DNA of 64,000 nt, from NCBI RefSeq assembly GCF_000526155.1, contig NZ_JAFN01000001.1, positions 1,058,501 through 1,122,500 of the forward strand. Direction: 5' to 3'. Each line of letters begins with the position of its first letter. Within the stretch, counting starts at the first letter, position 1. Source of the DNA: Deferrisoma camini S3R1 (GTDB lineage Bacteria; Desulfobacterota; Deferrisomatia; Deferrisomatales; Deferrisomataceae). This document shows positions 5,392 through 62,599 of this stretch, piece after piece. Both the position numbers and the translations under genes were made by a program. The notes beneath the pieces are model-generated. The model worked only from the letters and a program-made list of their open reading frames with translations, made no database searches and was not told the origin of the DNA.

Positions 5392-5821
5392 GGAGGGCTG
5401 GGAAGCCCCTTTCGGCCGCTGCGCGACCCTACAGACGGAGAAGGGTAACTTGCGCTGGCCCGGGGCCATTGCCGGAGGCGGGCATGGGGTCTGCTTCCGG
5501 CCGCGCGCGGCTCTCCAGCAGACCCCATGCCCCCCGGACCATCCAACGTCCTAACGTCCCAACGTCCTAGCGTCCAATCAACTTCGGTCGTCGGTCGGGA
5601 CGGCTCCCGTGCCGCCCCAAGGCTTCGGGGACATGGGTGCGACAGGGAGGCCCTTATAGGGGCGGAGCGCTCCGGGTGTCAAACGCTCCTCGGGTTTTCC
5701 GCCCGCCGCGGCTTGTGGTACTAATCGCAGCGAGCGCCGGGCCGGGCTCGGCGACGCAAACGGTTCCAGCTTTCCAGCCTTCTAGCCTTTTGGCCTTCCA
5801 GCCCAGCGGGCCGAAGGCCCG
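5392..5821. repeat. Repeat-filled gap: composite element, 16-base-arm hairpin and short-word arrays
   Basis: No gene lies between hypA and the AICAR transformylase gene; the gap is made of repeat modules. Positions 5413-5465 match 44688-44739 in the same orientation (about 85 percent identical by eye). The arms at 5480-5495 (GGGCATGGGGTCTGCT) and 5517-5532 are perfect inverted repeats around a 21-base loop. From 5540 to 5575 the words ACGTCC-(C/T)A repeat. At 5578-5602 are CGGTCGT words. At 5761-5805 are TTCCAGCC/TTCTAGCC words. The stretch ends in a TTCG-type hairpin, GGGCCGAAGGCCC. Confidence 0.8.
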
Positions 5822-12809: not shown

Positions 12810-12999
12810 AGGCTGGAAAGCTAGGAGGCTAGGAGGCTAAGAGGCTTGAACCCCCCCGAATTCCCACACGTTCTAGGAATCACCGTATCTCTTCGCCTCC
12901 ACCTCACGGTCCGGGGGCATGGGGTCTGCTGGAGCGCCCGCCCGCCCAACCGGCCGGGATACCCGGAATTTCTCTAGTCTCTAGTTTCTAGCCTCTGCC
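12810..12999. repeat. Composite intergenic element (icd-ahcY gap)
   Basis: A clear copy of the mosaic element. Module order is: AGGCTAGG words (12812-12846); a block with CCCACACGTTCTAGG and CTCTTCGCCTCCACCTCAC (12850-12910); GGTCCGGGGGCATGGGGTC then TGCTGGAGCGCC (12909-12940); GGGATACCCGGAATTTC (12955-12972); and TCTCTAG/TTTCTAG words (12973-12993). The middle block is repeated at 55395-55482 in the same orientation and at 44727-44816 inverted. No gene is seen here. Confidence 0.8.
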
Positions 13000-14282: not shown

Positions 14283-14398
14283 TAGGCTAGAAAGCGGAAA
14301 ACCCGTTCGTCGTAGGTCGCCGGTCGTGGGTCGTTGAAGTTCAACGACGAACGACCCACGACCAACGATTCACGATTCACCATTCACCATTCACGGCC
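14283..14398. repeat. Array of CGACGAACGACC and TTCACGA words between metK and ahcY
   Basis: From 14307 the words CGTAGGTCGCCGGTCGTGGGTCGT run, then CGACGAACGACCCACGACC, then 14358-14395 CACGATTCACCATTCACC-type words with a period of 7-8. The halves GGTCGTTGAA and TTCAACGACGAACGACC are inverted around 14340, so the array is partly palindromic. No SAH or SAM riboswitch is recognisable. Confidence 0.7.
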
Positions 14399-15629: not shown

Positions 15630-15810
15630 TCGGGGCCTTCGGCCCGCTAGGCGGCCGGGCGGCTTAGAAACCTCCGTGATCTCCCAGCGTTCTGAGCACG
15701 GCCACGCCCCTTTGGCGCCACCTCACCGCCCCCGGAGGGCTAGGGGCCTGGTGGAGCGCCGGGCGTGGCTCGAAAATCTAGTTTCTAGTCTCTAGTTTCT
15801 AGTCTCTAGG
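15630..15810. repeat. Composite intergenic element (ptsI-metK gap)
   Basis: Module order: TTCG hairpin GGGCCTTCGGCCC (15637-15649); GCTAGGCGGCCGGGCGGCTT; a diverged CCTCCGTGATCTCCCAGCG block ending CGCCACCTCACCGCCCCC; AGGGGCCTGGTGGAGCGCC (15741-15759); and TCTAGTT/TCTAGTC words (15777-15808). The same order is seen at 20255-20426 and, inverted, at 44464-44626. Confidence 0.8.
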
Positions 15811-15818
15811 GGGCCCGC

Positions 15819-20205: not shown

Positions 20206-20215
20206 CTTCTCTGTG

Positions 20216-20426
20216 TCATCGGTCGTTGGTCGTTAGTCGTTGGTCGTCGGTTTGGGGCCTTCGGCCCGCTAGGCAGCTGGGCGGCCGGGCGGCTCCGGAG
20301 CCACCGCCAAAGCTCGGGCGGCATGGGGCCTGCTGGAGCGCCGGACGCGGCCCCTATCCGGGACTCACCATGTGAGCGAAGGGCTCTCGGTTTCCAGTCT
20401 CTAGTCTCTAGTCTCTAGTTTCTAGA
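20216..20426. repeat. Composite intergenic element (EIIA-rapZ gap)
   Basis: Module order: GGTCGTTGGTCGTTAGTCG words (20219-20245); TTCG hairpin GGGCCTTCGGCCC (20258-20270); GGCAGCTGGGCGGCCGGGCGG; CCAAAGCTCGGGCGGCATGGGGCC then TGCTGGAGCGCC (20309-20342); and TCTAGTC/TCTAGTT words (20396-20425). The layout is the same as at 15630-15810. Confidence 0.8.
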
Positions 20427-20432
20427 AGCTCC

Positions 20433-28576: not shown

Positions 28577-31195
<2,619 letters not shown>

Positions 31196-31198
31196 GTC

Positions 31199-36539: not shown

Positions 36540-36604
36540 ATTGGATAGCTGGGACGTTGGGACGTTGGGACGCCTCCTAGCTTCCCAGCTTCCTAGCCTC
36601 CGCC
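36540..36604. repeat. GACGTTGG and AGGAAGCTGG word arrays; supplies the stop codon of the outer-membrane channel gene
   Basis: GGATAGCTGGGACGTTGGGACG words (36543-36572) are followed by CTCCTAGCTTCCCAGC and TTCCTAGCCTCC (36573-36602). Read on the minus strand, GGAGGCTAGGAAGCTGGG contains the TAG that ends the channel gene at 36593. Confidence 0.7.
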
Positions 36605-38659: not shown

Positions 38660-38918
38660 CTCCTTGTGTTGGGCCTTCGGCCCGCTGGGCGGCGGGGCGG
38701 CGAGGTGGCTGGGCGGCTGCCGAGTCGCCGCCGCCAACGGCGGGGCTCAAGTGAAACGCCAGTTTCAAGCAGTTGTTTCACGCTGTCAAGGCCGGGCCGT
38801 TGCGGCCGCTTCTTGCCTCTTGGGCCGCGGCCGGGGCACCATAGCCGCCCGGCCGCCTGGCTGCCCAGCCGCCTGGCGGGCCGAAGGCCCCCAACCGAAG
38901 ACCAACGACCGAAGTTAC
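38660..38918. repeat. Inverted pair of TTCG-hairpin/GGGCGGC modules around the tetR operator
   Basis: GGGCCTTCGGCCCGCTGGGC at 38672-38691, with GGCGGC words, faces its inverse at 38838-38890 (GCCGCCCGGCCGCC ... GCGGGCCGAAGGCCC). CCAACCGAAGACCAACGACC (38890-38909) is the usual next word array. The operator and promoter lie between the two arms. Confidence 0.65.
38751..38781. promoter_or_regulatory. Candidate TetR operator (GAAAC-GCCA-GTTTC palindrome)
   Basis: GTGAAACGCCAGTTTCAA (38751-38768) is close to a perfect palindrome with half-site GAAAC/GTTTC around GCCA. A further half-site GTTTCAC follows at 38775-38781. It lies in the gap between the divergent tetR-led operon and the thioredoxin gene, where a CecR-like operator would be expected. 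Binding by the encoded TetR protein is inference. Confidence 0.45.
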
Positions 38919-38930
38919 ATGGAAGGAATC

Positions 38931-39377
38931 ATGGATTCGGGATATCTTCTGCAGTGTGCCGCGTGCGGGCACGAGCACCGGGTGGCCCACGGCCGCACCG
39001 GGCAGGCGGTGCGGTGCGGCGCGTGCGGCGCGCCGCTGATCCGGGGCAACTGCCTGCCCGACGACGTGACCGATGCGGACTGGGAACGGGAGGTTCTGGG
39101 GTCCCGGGCGCCGGTGATCGTGGTGGTGTGGGGTCCGGAGTGCCCGGTGTGCGCGGACTACGAGGTGAGCGTGGGGCAGATGGCCATCCGCCTGTACGGC
39201 GAGGCCCGGGTGCTACGGCTCAACATCGAGGAGAACCCCGAGACGGCCCGGCGTTACGGGATCGAGGGGGTTCCCATGGTGCTTCTGTTCCGGGACGGCC
39301 GGCTCCTGGCCCAGCTCCCCGGCCCCCGGGGCGAGCAGGGGCTGCGCGAGGCGCTGGGGTTGGGGGAGGGGCATTAG
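38931..39377 (+). CDS. Zinc-ribbon thioredoxin-like protein with a CPVC active site
   Basis: A 148-residue protein with the layout of E. coli TrxC (thioredoxin 2). An N-terminal zinc ribbon with two CxxC pairs (CAAC and CGAC, residues 8-37) is followed by a thioredoxin fold (50-140). The latter contains VIVVVWGPECPVCADYE, VLRLNIEENPETARRYGI and the cis-Pro of GVPMVLLFRDGR. The active site is CPVC instead of CGPC, which suggests a different redox potential. The ATG at 38931 was preferred because GGAAGGA precedes it, although closely. An ATG at 38919 is the alternative. Confidence 0.82.
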   Translation: MDSGYLLQCAACGHEHRVAHGRTGQAVRCGACGAPLIRGNCLPDDVTDADWEREVLGSRAPVIVVVWGPECPVCADYEVSVGQMAIRLYGEARVLRLNIEENPETARRYGIEGVPMVLLFRDGRLLAQLPGPRGEQGLREALGLGEGH

Positions 39378-40341: not shown

Positions 40342-40842
40342 GGTTTCACACCGGTGACAGGGGCTGCCGCAGGCCCCGTGGAGACCTGTTTGCGGAACAC
40401 AAGCTCCCGCACGAGATCTGAAATCAAACGTTCCCAAGCGGGTCATGGGGTTCAGGAACCGGAATTCAGCGGACAGGAGACAGGAAATCCTGAAAAGCAG
40501 TTTGGGTTCCCGGGGGGACCCTCTCGGGGCACCGAAGAGCCTTCTCCCTGTCCACCGACTTCTGAATTCTGGCCCCTGAAACCCATGCCCCCCGAGGCCT
40601 TGGCGTCAGGGCTCAGGAGCCGCCCGGCCGCCCAGCGGGCCGAAGGCCCCAGACCGACGACCGTAGACCGACGACCGTAGACTGGCGACCGTAGACTGAC
40701 GACCGTAGACCGAAGTTCCTGGGAAGGGTACGGGACCCACGGGGGTTTGGCAACGGGCCGGACGAACAGAAGTGACCGGAGCCTCTGGTTCTGCTAGACT
40801 TTTGGGTTTCGGCCGACCAAACCTTCCGGCGGAGGTGCGCGG
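40342..40842. repeat. Repeat-filled gap: TTCAGG/CCTGAA hairpin, composite modules, GACCGTAGACC array
   Basis: No gene is seen. Arms at 40441-40470 (GGTCATGGGGTTCAGGAACC, then GGAATTCAG) and 40560-40592 (CTGAATTCTGG, then CCCCTGAAACCCATGCCCC) are inverted. The reversed module GCCGCCCGGCCGCCCAGCGG followed by GCCGAAGGCCCC is at 40620-40649. From 40650 to 40715 the 12-base word GACGACCGTAGACC repeats five times with small changes. The promoter of the small membrane protein gene is presumably in 40716-40840. Confidence 0.75.
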
Positions 40843-41160
40843 GTGTTCGACCGTCTGATCGACCTCTGGAACCAGATCGACTGGGGCCCCTTCCTCGAGC
40901 ACGTGACGAACGAGCGCATCATGGCCGCCCTGACCCACCCTTACGGCCTGGCCGCGATCGGGGTGCTCATGCTGCTGTCCCTGTTCATGAAGTGGCGGAT
41001 CACCTTCGCCGTGCTGGCCGGGGGCACGGCCGTGGCGTTCCTGGGCCGGTACGTGACCGCTGGCGAGGGAGGGCCCAACCGCCAGCTGTTCCTGTTCGCC
41101 GGCGGGGCGGTGGCGGTCGGCGCGTTTCTGATCTACTACCTGTTCATCCGCGAGGACTAG
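40843..41160 (+). CDS. Small hypothetical membrane protein
   Basis: A 105-residue product with two or three membrane helices: LAAIGVLMLLSLFMKW near 36-51, ITFAVLAGGTAVAFLGRYV at about 53-71, and LFLFAGGAVAVGAFLIYYLFI at 83-103. No family is recognised. The start is a GTG with GGAGGTG upstream. It ends 4 bases before the HgdB-like gene, so it is probably the first gene of an operon with the HgdB-like protein, ttcA and cls. Confidence 0.7.
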   Translation: MFDRLIDLWNQIDWGPFLEHVTNERIMAALTHPYGLAAIGVLMLLSLFMKWRITFAVLAGGTAVAFLGRYVTAGEGGPNRQLFLFAGGAVAVGAFLIYYLFIRED

Positions 41161-44340: not shown

Positions 44341-44463
44341 GGTTCCGCCGGGCCAAGGCCCACCGTCTCGGCCCGGAGCTTTGCGTGGAGGCGGGCCAAA
44401 GGGGTATAGAGGGGGCGCGCGAAGAATTCCACCTGAGAGCGATCAATTTTCACCTATGGGGCA

Positions 44464-44816
44464 GGGACTAGAAACTGGAAACTAGAAACTAGAGACGAGG
44501 GAAATTCCGGGTATCTCGGCCCGTCAGGCGGCCGTCCTACCAGCCCCCATGCCCCCCGAGCTTCGGCGGGGTTCGAGAGCCGCCCGGCCCCTAACCGCCC
44601 AACTGCCCAGCGGGCCGAAGGCCCCAGACCGGCGACCGAAGACCGAGGATCGACGTTCCGGTAAAGAACTTGCATGAAAGCCTCAATCGGCCGCTGCGCG
44701 GCCCTACAACGCAGAAGGGTAACGTGCGTTGGTCCGGGGGGCATGAGGTGGGGGCGAAGAGGCATGACAATGCCTAGAACGTGTGGGAATCCGGGAGATT
44801 TTCAAGCCTCGAAGCC
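44464..44816. repeat. Two inverted composite elements in the cls-gcdA gap
   Basis: No gene is seen between cls and gcdA. In reverse orientation 44464-44626 carries all modules: GGACTAGAAACTGGAAACTAG words, GAAATTCCGGGTATC, CCCCCATGCCCCCCGAGC, GCCGCCCGGCC and GCGGGCCGAAGGCCCC. A second block at 44688-44739 repeats 5413-5465. From 44731 to 44816 lies the inverse of 12843-12925 and 55393-55478, including the small hairpin AGGCATGACAATGCCT (44761-44776). Confidence 0.8.
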
Positions 44817-51859: not shown

Positions 51860-51990
51860 GATCTCCTGGAAACTTCGGTCGTTGGTCGGAACTTCCGTGA
51901 ATCGTAAATCGTGAATGGTAAATCGGACTTCCCGGTAACTTCGGTCTACGGTCGTTGGTCTGGGGCCTTCGGCCCGCTGAAAAGCAGATC
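51860..51990. repeat. Word arrays and TTCG hairpin between ligA and the crotonase gene
   Basis: ACTTCGGTCGTTGGTCGG (51871-51888), GTGAATCGTAAATCGTGAATGG-type words (51897-51926), TAACTTCGGTCTACGGTCG (51938-51956) and GGGGCCTTCGGCCCGCTG (51961-51978) follow one another. No gene is seen. Confidence 0.7.
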
Positions 51991-58164: not shown

Positions 58165-59300
58165 GCACCTTCCTCCGCCCCGCAGGAAGACGCTCGCGCC
58201 TTGCCACCGCCCCCCCATATCCGCTTCCACACCCCCTCGTACCCCGCCACCATGGCGGGGATGGAGAACCGCGCCTCCACGAGTTTCCTTCCGGCCCGGC
58301 CGTGGGCCCGGGCCCGGTCCGGGTGGAGGGCGTATCCCGCCAGTCCCTGGCCCAGGGCCTCGGCGTTGCCCGGGGGCATCAGGGTGCCGGTCTGCCCGTC
58401 CTTCACCAGCTCGGGGTTCCCCCCGACGCGGGTGGCCACCACGGGCAGTCCGGTGGCCATGGCCTCGAGGATGGTGTTCGAGATGCCCTCGTTCCGGGAG
58501 CACAGCACGAACACGTCCAGCGCCCGCAGGATCTCGGGCACGTCCGCCCGGTCGCCCAGGAAGATCACCCCCTCACCTGCGACGGATTCGAGCCGCCCCC
58601 TCTCCGGGCCGTCCCCCACCACCACGAGCCGGGCGTCGGGCACCTTGTCCCGCAGCCGGGCGAAGGCCTGGAACAGGGTGGGGTGGTCCTTGATGGGGTC
58701 CAACCGGCCCACGATCCCGGCCACGAACGCCTCGCCAGGAATGCCGAGCTCCGCCCGGACGCGCTCGCCGGAGCCCGGACGAAACACGTCGGTGTCCACC
58801 CCGTTGTAGATCTGGGTCACGGGCCGGCCCACCCGGATCTCCTCCACGAGCCAGCCCTCGATGGCCCGGGAGACGCAGGTGTATTCCCGCACCCAGCGGG
58901 CCAGCAGGCGCCGGATGCGCACCCGCTTGGGGCTTCGGCCGTCGGGGTCGTCCATGCCCCACCCGTGCTCGCCGTGCACCACGTTGCGGATGCCGGCCAA
59001 CCGCGCCGCGATGATCCCGTCCATGCCGGGCCAGTTGCGGGTGTGGACCACGTCGGGCCGGAGCTCCTTCAGAATCCGCCTCAACTTGATGATGCTACGG
59101 ATGGAATTTCCTGGGGGTTTTCTCAGCTCCACCACGTCGGTTCCCGGGGGCAGCAATCGCTCCGACGCCCCGGACACGGTGAGGCACACGATGGAGTGAC
59201 GAAACCCCTCCGACCCGTGCCGCACCACCGTGGCGATCCCCTTCTCAAGGCCACCGGTACCGAAAGAGTAGAGCACGTGCACTACTTTTATATTGGCCAC
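58161..59300 (-). CDS. GT4-family glycosyltransferase
   Basis: A 379-residue retaining GT-B glycosyltransferase. GGLEKGIATVV is the N-terminal Gly loop and QIYNGVDTDVFRP lies in the linker. GIVGRLDPIKDHPTLFQAF starts the C-terminal domain, and RNEGISNTILEAMATGLPVV is the EX7E nucleotide-sugar motif. It probably adds a sugar to an extracellular polysaccharide or O-antigen. The only full-length start is a GTG at 59300, which lies inside a CTGTGGCCAAT repeat unit, with no ribosome-binding site visible. A GTG a few codons further on (HVLYSFGTGG) is an alternative. Confidence 0.88.
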   Translation of the reverse strand: MANIKVVHVLYSFGTGGLEKGIATVVRHGSEGFRHSIVCLTVSGASERLLPPGTDVVELRKPPGNSIRSIIKLRRILKELRPDVVHTRNWPGMDGIIAARLAGIRNVVHGEHGWGMDDPDGRSPKRVRIRRLLARWVREYTCVSRAIEGWLVEEIRVGRPVTQIYNGVDTDVFRPGSGERVRAELGIPGEAFVAGIVGRLDPIKDHPTLFQAFARLRDKVPDARLVVVGDGPERGRLESVAGEGVIFLGDRADVPEILRALDVFVLCSRNEGISNTILEAMATGLPVVATRVGGNPELVKDGQTGTLMPPGNAEALGQGLAGYALHPDRARAHGRAGRKLVEARFSIPAMVAGYEGVWKRIWGGGGKARASSCGAEEGA

Positions 59301-60606
59301 AGATTCACACAGATGAACACAGATAAGCTTTGAGTGTTTTGGTCTTCATACGAAACGATGCGAGCAAAACGCCGGTCTCTACAATCACTGCAGTCAAAGA
59401 CCACTACAAACACAGAAGAACAGATTTCTTTTCAAACCAACACACAATCTGTGTCGATCTGTGCAAACCTGTGGCTAAAACACGATTCTTATATCAGCCA
59501 CAGATCCCCACAGATGGACACAGATCTTCCCCATTGGACAGTCTAGACTGAGCGCACAAATACCAGTAACGGCAAAAATAACCGCAAAAACACCTTGCCG
59601 TTCTCCCAGAACAACGACCCTGCCATTAACATTCAAACTCTTTCAAACACCAAAATCTGTGGGCATCTGTGGAAATCTGTGGCTAAAACACCAACCTCTT
59701 GATCTGCGGCCTCGGGCCGAAGTTGAGTATCAAGCCCACGCGTATCCCCGTCGCCTTCAGGTAGTTCAACAGTTGCGCCTCGTGCTCCGGGGCGATCGTC
59801 TTGACGGCCTTGACCTCCACGATCACGCTGCCATTCACCACAAGGTCTGCGAAGTACTGCCCGACACACGTCCCCTTGTACTCCACCTCTAGAGCCGGTT
59901 GTTGCTCGGCGCTCACCCCTCGTTCCAGCAGTTCTGCCATCAGGGCGTTCTCGTAGACCTTCTCGAGAAAACCGTACCCCAAAGTGTTGTACACTTCATA
60001 GAATGCGGCAATAACCTTATCAGTAAGGTCCACATACATGTACTGCATGGGCATCTTCCACTCTGGCCACAGACCACACAGATAAACACAGATATTTCAG
60101 TTGGCTGCTTCACTCCGCACAGACAAATTATCAGCAACAGCAAGAACGATAACAAGAACTCCCTTGCCGCCTTTCCACAAACAACGGCTCAACCACTCAT
60201 CTTCACAGACACCCATACAAGCTAAACAAAAAAATCTATGGAGAACCGTGCAAACTTGCGACCAAAACACGATCCTTGCATTAGCCACAGATCCACCTAA
60301 ATAGCACAGAAACTGCGTTACGAACCCAAGCACAGATCGGCCGTCGATTGTTGTATACGACAATACAATCGTTCACGACACAATAGGAACAAATACCAGA
60401 AACACAAATCTGTGTTCATCTGTGTCCATCTGTGGCCAAGCAACAAAACATGACCATCAATATTAGCCACAGATCCACACAGATTTGCACTGGTACAACT
60501 CCGCATTTCGCCCCCGCCAGAAACTTGATCTTAATAGTTTACCGAACTTACCAGAAAACAGACCGCCAAACCTAATCTGTGGCCGTCTGTGTTTATCTGT
60601 GGCTAA
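59283..60606. repeat. AT-rich region of inverted CACAGAT arrays around the GxxExxY gene
   Basis: Repeat units CACAGAT-N4 are arranged as inverted pairs. Plus-strand forms (GCCACAGATTCACACAGATG) occur at 59294-59326, 59500-59526, 60064-60093, 60283-60312 and 60464-60486. Reverse forms (ATCTGTGTCGATCTGTGC) occur at 59448-59478, 59655-59688, 60408-60436 and 60572-60604. Their inner edges are mostly TTTTAGCC or GGCTAAAA. The region is strikingly AT-rich next to about 70 percent GC neighbours. Besides the GxxExxY gene I see no credible gene at 59301-59682 or 60049-60592. Confidence 0.85.
59683..60048 (-). CDS. GxxExxY-family protein (PD-(D/E)XK nuclease-like)
   Basis: A 121-residue protein of the GxxExxY family. 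The namesake motif is GFLEKVYENAL near residue 26. The Asp of CVGQYFADLVV and the ExK of VIVEVKAV match the D...ExK active-site pattern of the PD-(D/E)XK fold, so nuclease activity is possible but unproven. NYLKATGIRVGLILNFG is the typical C-terminus. The ATG at 60048 has GGAAG 6 bases upstream; an ATG two codons earlier is possible. Its TAG is the first codon of a TAGCCACAGAT repeat, and another array begins about 15 bases upstream, in inverted orientation. Confidence 0.85.
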   Translation of the reverse strand: MQYMYVDLTDKVIAAFYEVYNTLGYGFLEKVYENALMAELLERGVSAEQQPALEVEYKGTCVGQYFADLVVNGSVIVEVKAVKTIAPEHEAQLLNYLKATGIRVGLILNFGPRPQIKRLVF

Positions 60607-62599
60607 ACCTCCCCGCCCACAAGTTGAGCATCATCACGATCCACAGTTCGGTGGCGTAGTTGCGCAGGCCGTTTTGGTGCTCCTTCCAGATCCGCTCCAG
60701 CCGGTCCTGGCGGAAGTACAGGCGGCTCGCCTCGCCGTCCAGGATCAGACCCCGGGCGTAGTCCTTGAGCTCGCCCCGCAGCCACTCCAGGATCGGCACC
60801 CCGAACCCCATCTTCCTCCGGTACAGGATGTCGTCGGGCAGGTGGCGCTTAAGGGCCTTTTTGAAGATGTGCTTTCCGTCGAGCCCCACGAGCTTCAGGC
60901 GCGAAGGGATCCGGGCCACGTACTCCATGAACTCGTGGTCCAGGATCGGGCAGCGCACCTCCAGCGACACCGCCATGCTGGCCCGGTCCACCTTGGTGAG
61001 GATGTCGCCGCACAGGTAGGTCTGGATGTCCAGGTACTGGATCCTGGATAGGTGGTCCTCGGCCGGGGCCCGGCGGTAGATCTCGTAGAACAGGTCCCGG
61101 GTTTCGTAGCCACCCAGGGCCTCCAGCACCTCCGGCTTGAGCAGCGCCCGTTTCGCGTCCTCGTAAAAGGCGCTCACCGAAAAGAAGTACGCGTCCTCCG
61201 GGTCGCGGGCCACATTCGAAATGAAGGCCTTGCCCCGGAAGATCTGGGGCAGGTAGTCCGCCTTGGGGTAGAGCCTCCCCAGGCCGCCGAACACGGGTCT
61301 TCGCAGGGGCCGGGGCACCAGGTTGCGCACCAGGTTCTCCCGGGCGTCCATGTAGTAGCGCCGGTACCCGGCGAAGTTCTCATCCCCGCCGTCGCCGGAG
61401 AGGGAGACCGTGACGTTCTGCCGGGCGGTGCGCGACACGTAGTACGTGGGCACGGCCGACGAGTCCGCGAACGGCTCGTCGTAGTGCCAGGCCAGCTCCT
61501 CGATGACCGGGATGGCTTCGGGGGTCACGTGGAACTCGTGGTGGTCGGTGCGAAACAGCTCCGCCACCCGCCGCGCGTACTCGGCCTCGTTGTACTGGGC
61601 CACGCTGAACGAGATGGAGTTCGTGAGCACCGGGCGGCCGTCGGAGGCCCGGGCCATCAGGGCCACCACGGCCGAGGAGTCCACGCCTCCCGACAGGAAC
61701 GCCCCGAGCGGCACGTCACTGATCATCCGAAGCCGGGTGGCCTCGTCCAGGATGCCCAGGAGCTCCTCCATCATCCGCTCCTCGGGCAGGTCGTGGCACG
61801 GGGTGAACGCGAGGTCCCAGTACCGGCGGACCTCGAACGCGTCGGCCGTGACCAGGGCGTAGTGGGCCGGGGGGAGCTTTCGGATCGACCGGAAGATGCT
61901 TTTGGGCGAGGGCACGTACAGGAGCGACAGGTAGTCCGACAGCGCGGTCAGGTCCACGTCCCGGTCCACCCCCGGAGCCTCCAAGATCGCCTTGATTTCC
62001 GAGCCGAACACCAGCCGCTCGTCGTCCACCAAGTAATAGAGCGGCTTTTTGCCCACCCGGTCCCGGACGAGCCACAGCACCTGCTTTCGCTCGTCCCACA
62101 GGGCGATCGCAAACATCCCCCGGAACCGCTGCACCGCGCCCTCGCCCCACTCCTCCCAGGCGTGCACGATGGTCTCGGTGTCGGAGTGGGTGCGGAACCG
62201 GTGGCCCTTGGCCTCCAGCTCCTTCTTCAAGGACTGGAAGTTGTAGACCTCGCCGTTGAACGCCACCCAAACCGTGCCGTCCTCGTTGGCGAGGGGCTGC
62301 TGGCCGGTGGAAAGGTCGATGATGGACAGCCGCCGGTGGCCGAGGCCCACGTGGCCCGGTCCGGCCGTTGATCGTAAATCGTGAATCGTGAATCGTGAAT
62401 CGTTGGGACGTTGGTAGGACGCCGGGCTTCCCAGCTTCCCAGCCTCCCAGCCTCCCAGCGCGTCAACGGGCGGACGCCCGTTGACGAAGTACCCCTCCTC
62501 GTCGGGCCCCCGGTGGGTCAGGGTCCGGGTCATCCGGACCAGCACCTCGGGGTCGACGGGCGAGCCGTTGCGATGGAACAGACCTGCAATGCCGCACAT
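60593..62599 (-). CDS. asnB: Glutamine-hydrolysing asparagine synthase-type amidotransferase with an in-frame repeat insertion
   Basis: A 668-residue class II amidotransferase. Cys2 (MCGIAGLFHRNG) is the glutaminase nucleophile. GHRRLSIIDLSTGQQPLANE and FNGEVYN complete the N-terminal domain. The synthetase domain has the PP-loop FLSGGVDSSAV and LSGDGGDENFAGYRRY. About 35 residues between GYFVNG and VGLGHRRLS are unlike any AsnB: their codons are made of repeat words (62370-62460). The C-terminal FSHR and stop come from a TTTAGCCACAGATAA repeat. The neighbouring glycosyltransferase and ligase/polymerase suggest a polysaccharide or peptide-modification role. Confidence 0.9.
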   Translation of the reverse strand: MCGIAGLFHRNGSPVDPEVLVRMTRTLTHRGPDEEGYFVNGRPPVDALGGWEAGKLGSPASYQRPNDSRFTIHDLRSTAGPGHVGLGHRRLSIIDLSTGQQPLANEDGTVWVAFNGEVYNFQSLKKELEAKGHRFRTHSDTETIVHAWEEWGEGAVQRFRGMFAIALWDERKQVLWLVRDRVGKKPLYYLVDDERLVFGSEIKAILEAPGVDRDVDLTALSDYLSLLYVPSPKSIFRSIRKLPPAHYALVTADAFEVRRYWDLAFTPCHDLPEERMMEELLGILDEATRLRMISDVPLGAFLSGGVDSSAVVALMARASDGRPVLTNSISFSVAQYNEAEYARRVAELFRTDHHEFHVTPEAIPVIEELAWHYDEPFADSSAVPTYYVSRTARQNVTVSLSGDGGDENFAGYRRYYMDARENLVRNLVPRPLRRPVFGGLGRLYPKADYLPQIFRGKAFISNVARDPEDAYFFSVSAFYEDAKRALLKPEVLEALGGYETRDLFYEIYRRAPAEDHLSRIQYLDIQTYLCGDILTKVDRASMAVSLEVRCPILDHEFMEYVARIPSRLKLVGLDGKHIFKKALKRHLPDDILYRRKMGFGVPILEWLRGELKDYARGLILDGEASRLYFRQDRLERIWKEHQNGLRNYATELWIVMMLNLWAGRFSHR
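62370..62460. repeat. Mixed word array inside the asnB coding region
   Basis: GATCGTAAATCGTGAATCG-type words (62370-62404), TTGGGACGTTGGTAGGACG (62403-62421) and GCTTCCCAGCTTCCCAGC/CTCCCAGC words (62426-62459) follow one another, as in intergenic arrays elsewhere. They keep the asnB frame open for 30 codons. Confidence 0.85.

Follow-up and report, generated by a model that had tools for sequence, protein, structure and literature searches.

The array at the centre of this analysis lies at positions 40651-40713 (forward strand) of the window, a 64,000-nucleotide stretch that corresponds to bases 1058501-1122500 of the single-contig, 4,236,551-base genome of Deferrisoma camini S3R1 (G000, approximately 70% G+C). 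It comprises 4.5 copies of AGACCGACGACCGT with 91% matches, and at a lag of 14 bases 45 of 49 positions agree, compared with a best value of 32 among 100 dinucleotide shuffles of the entire window, confirming the array that an earlier note had placed at 40650-40715. At a lag of 7, agreement is found at 36 of 56 positions, and the basic unit is the 7-mer GACCGNN, repeated here as a 14-bp doublet. The "12-14 base word" of that note thus does recur every 14 bases, but as 2 x 7, because the true unit is 7. The array sits near the 3' end of a larger, dispersed mosaic element made up of an octamer array, the hairpin GGGCCGAAGGCCC, a heptamer array and GAAGTTACNNGGAAG. At this site the element consists of a short AGCCGCCY octamer array (40619-40641, forward strand), the hairpin that separates it from the heptamers (40637-40649, forward strand), the array itself and the conserved 3' end GACCGAAGTTCCTGGGAAG (40708-40726, forward strand), found by genome search with the consensus GACCGAAGTTACNNGGAAG. 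It is directly preceded by a second, separate dispersed imperfect palindrome of approximately 165 bp (40438-40602), with about 20 long genomic copies, whose arms on direct reading are degenerate heptamers and of which 102 bp are missing in the sister species G001. The region around the array has 64 genomic matches and the 27-bp array pattern occurs at 34 sites in the genome. There is no start codon close by, the nearest downstream being at 40843, about 120 bp off.

Similar arrays are scattered throughout the window. All six word families listed in the earlier note were recovered in several places each, along with further families (GTCACNN, AGCCGCCY and ACCTGCG). Upstream of pyrG (CTP synthase), a mosaic at 31017-31198 combines octamers with GTGACNN, AACGACC and CGTRAATC words, and at 14309-14397 a GTCGTNG array, AAGTT, a CAACGAC array and a TCACGAT array stand head-to-head, where G001 carries a AACGTCCC array instead. 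An AACGACC array lies close upstream of a start codon at 20214-20252 (reverse strand). ACTAGAR (TCTAGTY) arrays were found on the reverse strand at 12969-12996, at 15775-15811 (missing from the orthologous G001 gap) and at 20388-20427 (differing in length by whole 7-bp units in G001), and on the forward strand at 44463-44502, upstream of an octamer/hairpin/GACCG element at 44588-44655. A GACGTTGG array is joined to an AGCYTYCY array at 36546-36592, where G001 has one additional 8-bp unit and an extra module, and an AACGTCCY (GACGTTGG) array at 5542-5577 is joined to the end of a GACCG element. The CGTGAATC array at 51895-51923 (forward strand) has a GACCG element adjoining it on the other strand, and the octamer array, hairpin and GACCG element at 38843-38925 (forward strand) stop 5 nt short of the ATG that opens the gene at 38931. 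The CACAGAT family has a period of 10, unlike the 7 and 8 of the others, and sits in a lower-GC stretch; period-10 arrays of CACAGATNNA occur in both orientations at 59297-60610, in a lower-GC stretch. Both examples of directly joined arrays given in the earlier note, 31028-31195 and 62370-62460, are indeed joined, but the latter is not in a gap: the mosaic of CGTGAATC, GACGTTGG and AGGCTGGG words at 62366-62462 (reverse strand) lies in frame within an open gene, assigned by family model to an XrtA/PEP-CTERM amidotransferase (asparagine-synthase-like, TIGR03108; 60593-62599, reverse strand). A KdsB gene in the home DNA points to a Gram-negative organism, and no RNA family match or tRNA was found.

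The period of these arrays was counted in 464 kb of the home genome containing 70.8 kb of gaps, with Markov-resampled gaps as the control. The gaps contained 46 segments of period 7, 42 of period 8 and 30 of period 14, compared with 0.8, 1.5 and 0.4 in the resampled gaps, while periods 4, 5, 6, 9 and 11 yielded 0, 0, 2, 2 and 0 segments. Relative to shuffled sequence, enrichment in intergenic DNA was approximately 50-fold for period 7 and 30-fold for period 8. The window alone gave 13, 14, 3 and 11 segments of periods 7, 8, 10 and 14 against shuffle means of 0.5-0.8; period 10 is only weakly above chance, as its 3 segments compare with a mean of 0.8 and a shuffle maximum of 4. The arrays are intergenic mosaics of short words, strictly 7 or 8 letters long. 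As in STRR-type repeats, the units are degenerate 7-bp tandems belonging to multiple families per genome (with 8-bp units equally frequent), their location is mainly intergenic, the mosaic within open reading frame 60593-62599 being the exception, and copy number shifts by whole units in several gaps.

The commonest composite reads, from 5' to 3' towards the gene, AGCCGCCY octamers, the hairpin GGGCCGAAGGCCC, a GACCGNN or AACGACC array and GAAGTTACNNGGAAG, with ACTAGAR arrays placed farther upstream. Its 3' module (consensus GACCGAAGTTACNNGGAAG) has 160 copies in the home genome at up to 2 mismatches (0 for the reversed control), 120 in the sister genome G002 and 113 in G001; outside the genus, in the rest of the order, no genome has more than 1. 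A start codon with an open reading frame comes within 40 nt in 21 of the 44 copies examined, the start lying 1-34 nt behind the module, compared with 2 of 44 on the opposite strand, and many copies supply a GGAAG(G) 5-11 nt ahead of the start codon. Orientation in tandem gaps is mostly sense, most strongly so for AGCCGCCY (12:1), GACCGNN (31:8) and ACTAGAR (9:2), and the families keep typical distances from the start codon: many AACGACC and GACCGNN arrays lie approximately 20-45 bp away, AGCCGCCY arrays 70-90 bp and ACTAGAR arrays 150-250 bp. A general upstream placement of arrays was considered and rejected, as the arrays in tandem gaps, all taken together, divide into 49 closer to the start downstream and 49 closer to the stop upstream. 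Upstream placement is supported for the terminal module and for some individual families, but not beyond them.

The earlier note had proposed comparing the same gap in sister strains; the orthologous gaps of two sister species show how these arrays change. Coding DNA in the genus is mostly 86-97% identical (86-96% between G001 and the window), and the two sister assemblies are drafts of 130 and 380 contigs, which fail at repeats. Array-bearing gaps fall into three classes in the comparison with G001. Gaps 11390, 12720 and 31017 differ by substitutions or single-base indels only. Gaps 20206, 31964, 36471 and 40342 differ by whole-unit steps, namely 7-bp units in the TCTAGTY array (20206), -8 (31964), +8 (36471) and -28 (40342). 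Arrays or modules are gained, lost or exchanged in gaps 14191, 15564, 36471, 38653, 44341 and 55341; gap 14191, for example, holds AACGACC and CGTGAATC words in D. camini and AACGTCCC words in G001, and gap 38653 holds other modules in G001 and measures 760 bp there versus 278 bp. The pyrG gap differs from that of G001 by 3 substitutions, and in G002, with flanks 96-97% identical, other words and modules stand behind the first octamer array, which is itself longer. Change by point mutation alone is therefore refuted, since sister gaps gain and lose single words and exchange whole arrays, as the earlier note had anticipated. Its statement that the arrays are not simple slippage products found no support in that form, as several differences come to a single unit or a small whole number of units (+7, +8, -8, -28), which is characteristic of slippage or of unequal exchange. 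Equally, these are not microsatellites that keep their word and change only in unit number or by point mutation, because word families are exchanged. A 26-kb sample of G003, from another genus of the same family, contained no period-7 or period-8 arrays. In G004, from another family of the order, the orthologous pyrG gap carries a period-9 array, GTCCGACGG (L032, about position 1440).

Arrays also occur inside genes. Compared with the family model, the amidotransferase at 60593-62599 carries an insertion of approximately 39 residues between residues 42 and 82, and in G001 and G002 this loop keeps its frame with differing word strings; among other arrays within open reading frames of the home genome, judged without homologues, none was convincing. 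Conserved genes of other bacteria contain in-frame CGTGAATC arrays, read in the direction that is free of stops and encodes the peptide HDSRFTI; by family model the hosts are recJ, wecB, topA, mnmA and argH. In gatA, alignment to solved structures shows that a variable stretch has been lengthened by the array, whereas in argH the array fills a variable stretch of almost native length and so may have replaced sequence rather than added to it. In wecB, G077 carries a single clean insertion of 21 bp (3 x 7) relative to G041 (81% protein identity), and the empty site in G041 contains neither a related word nor an obvious target duplication. Insertion in frame into conserved genes, a feature of Rickettsia-type elements, was found for wecB, gatA and the amidotransferase, but the inserted DNA, 21 bp in wecB, is not a palindrome of 100-150 bp with conserved sequence. 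The recJ locus of a Thermodesulfovibrionales metagenome-assembled genome (L153) appears to have received two or three different short-word arrays in frame.

Presence and absence were also compared outside the genus, elsewhere in the phylum. Genome G168 has arrays of up to about 16 CGTRAATC units behind gene ends, and in G192, of the same genus, the same gaps (flanks 80-93% identical) are without arrays. At one empty site in this comparison (L132/L326) a few degenerate word-like units remain, so that growth from a seed, or array decay, is possible there. Three tandem copies of CGTGAATC were found in at least 118 stretches across many phyla; in the home phylum they occur in 15 of 297 genomes (reversed word, 0), patchily over ten or so families. 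Viral contigs held 11 such stretches, compared with 1, 2, 3, 9 and 30 for five other heptamers and with a further 2 for AACGACC; the 30 belong to CGTCAATC (L349-L378), approximately three times the CGTGAATC count. CCAGCAA, the reversed AACGACC chosen as a control, proved to be an array word itself in about eight other genomes, and is abundant in G149, G092, G016 and G121 (families f9 and f13 of the phylum, up to 56 matches). Sharing of CGTGAATC was accordingly rejected as proof of common descent, as other heptamers recur similarly in viral contigs, heptamer arrays of many words span phyla, and the recurrence of a word may be background. No paper on CGTGAATC was found in the literature library searched. 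Among 80 stretches from many phyla there were 40 period-7 arrays other than CGTGAATC and none of periods 4-6; 13 of the 80 foreign loci had inverted pairs with the arrays pointing towards each other, and none had the opposite order. Long nested hairpins at L188, L151, L148 and L168 have arrays as their outer stems, as is seen around GTACTTCGCCCAATC...GATTGGGCGAAGTAC. Of 148 phylum genomes, 5 contained arrays of CACAGATNNA and none matched the reversed control, and the 27-mer CACAGATTCACACAGATGAACACAGAT at window position 59298 is identical, free positions included, in G049 and G081 from other families.

In total, the arrays of this genus keep a strict period of 7 or 8, occupy slots in a preferred order and sense orientation, and turn over rapidly between sister species, including in frame. 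We consider it roughly 55% probable that they are satellites of 7/8-bp units with a rapid turnover, which change by slippage and are spread through the ectopic exchange of modules. Unit steps would result from replication slippage or from unequal exchange inside an array, and whole arrays or modules would be carried to other sites by ectopic exchange, either gene conversion or microhomology-mediated insertion of a patch from a copy in the same genome. Under such exchange, one genome's stock of words would fill many gaps and different words would become joined. We infer the exchange, as no donor locus was matched to any swapped array. Selection would act as a filter that removes only gene-breaking arrays, so that arrays would persist in gaps, in protein loops when in frame, at stop codons and ahead of ribosome-binding sites, and certain elements may have acquired a role as leaders through the GGAAG(G) that the terminal module places before start codons. 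Against the satellite reading, a unit fixed at 7 or 8 follows from neither slippage nor exchange, the wecB site in G041 has no word from which slippage could start, and the orientation and start-codon association could equally well reflect a selected function.

One rival reading takes up the proposal, made in the earlier note, of a common mechanism that writes short iterated sequence. It would be a dedicated process, for instance a polymerase, reverse transcriptase or repair route that would iterate a short template and so write 7/8-bp arrays de novo. The near-exclusive periods of 7 and 8 remain its best argument, joined by the dominance of heptamers in the 80 stretches from many phyla, the clean, seedless wecB insertion and the arrays missing from a close sister (G168 versus G192). 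The joined words on which the proposal had been built, on the other hand, are largely explained by the make-up of the dispersed mosaic elements, in which arrays are slots that follow a preferred order and orientation; in the home genome ordinary recombination could copy these elements. Unit steps resemble slippage, the L132/L326 site holds a possible seed, and no enzyme or template was identified. We regard such a process as unlikely, and its broader form, a process common to many bacteria that would write exact 7 (or 8)-base units without a local copy, taking the word from a cellular template rather than from local slippage, as distinctly doubtful. An improbable alternative is that the arrays are parts of non-autonomous REP/BIME- or MITE-type elements moved by a transposase such as Y1 (RAYT), as the dispersed palindrome and hairpin modules, the mosaic structure and the Y1_Tnp genes in 10 of 10 genomes tested might suggest. 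In the few genomes compared, however, the number of Y1_Tnp genes does not track that of CGTGAATC-array matches (2 versus 27 in G168, 7 versus 0 in G192, 2 versus 0 in G003), which disfavors transposition by a Y1 enzyme; array edges are variable and the single clean insertion, in wecB, shows no obvious target-site duplication. The home genome has four equal-scoring full-length Y1_Tnp genes with open frames of 166 residues (G000:C1:718733, 738564, 789121 and 1513274). Sense orientation, typical start-codon distances, the 21 of 44 terminal modules closely followed by a start and a folding z-score of -2.6 for 40430-40720 (as DNA) would fit a composite element selected as a 5' leader that regulates translation or transcription downstream, with the word arrays as binding or structural units. 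That most of the pyrG leader is replaced by other modules in a sister species, and that arrays overall split evenly between starts and stops (49 each), makes this rather hard to credit. Chance or assembly artefact is a negligible explanation, having nothing in its favor beyond the draft status of the sister genomes; shuffle tests refute chance for the home genome, which is a single contig, and independent genomes behave alike.

The genus of D. camini and the G168/G192 pair provide orthologous sites with, without or with different arrays, from which the birth, growth and exchange of arrays can be followed directly. The conserved enzymes that contain in-frame arrays preserve a record of insertions filtered by selection, and a short repeated peptide in an annotated protein, HDSRFTI for example, may stem from repeat DNA and not from protein design.

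That 7-bp units dominate among bacterial repeats is an earlier observation which, to our knowledge, has no accepted cause. The STRR heptamers of cyanobacteria are degenerate 7-bp word families located in gaps. BIME/REP elements are gap mosaics of palindromes and other motifs, which the present elements resemble, although the arrays described here have no demonstrated REP core or tie to a Y1 transposase. Rickettsia palindromic elements are conserved palindromes of approximately 100-150 bp tolerated in frame in protein genes; the tolerance of repeat DNA within coding genes is shared, whereas the in-gene arrays here are as short as 21 bp and lack constant ends. Small mobile sequences have been reviewed (PMC2229807). 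Among long simple sequence repeats of 5-11 nt, heptamers are the most abundant (summarised in PMC4679880). With these and with STRRs the present arrays share degenerate 7-bp gap families, the predominance of 7 nt and the proposed slippage; unlike in those repeats, 8-bp units are as common here, arrays are joined into ordered mosaics with hairpins, and swaps occur between sister species and in frame. The TAACTGA direct repeats of marine Beggiatoaceae are likewise intergenic heptamers, some right before start codons, and the word is present in unrelated phyla (PMC4679880), but there a single word dominates, compared with at least 7 word families in D. camini. For Geobacter metallireducens, the parts of the source that we consulted describe tandem 7- and 8-mers (GGGACCG x4 in 49 places, GTTGCTYN, TCTCCGTS and MTYCTGA), several paired on opposite strands and read as regulatory elements (PMC2700814); the several dispersed 7/8-bp words per genome and some inverted pairs are shared, the words differ, and those parts do not describe exchange between sister species. 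In the P6b stem of the Nostoc trnL intron, 7-nucleotide units show repeated replacement of the repeat class at the same site and indels of single units, as seen here, but at a single structural-RNA site and with two classes (PMC4476775). The D. camini arrays are a rich variant of these known heptamer-type repeats, with direct evidence of exchange between sister species.
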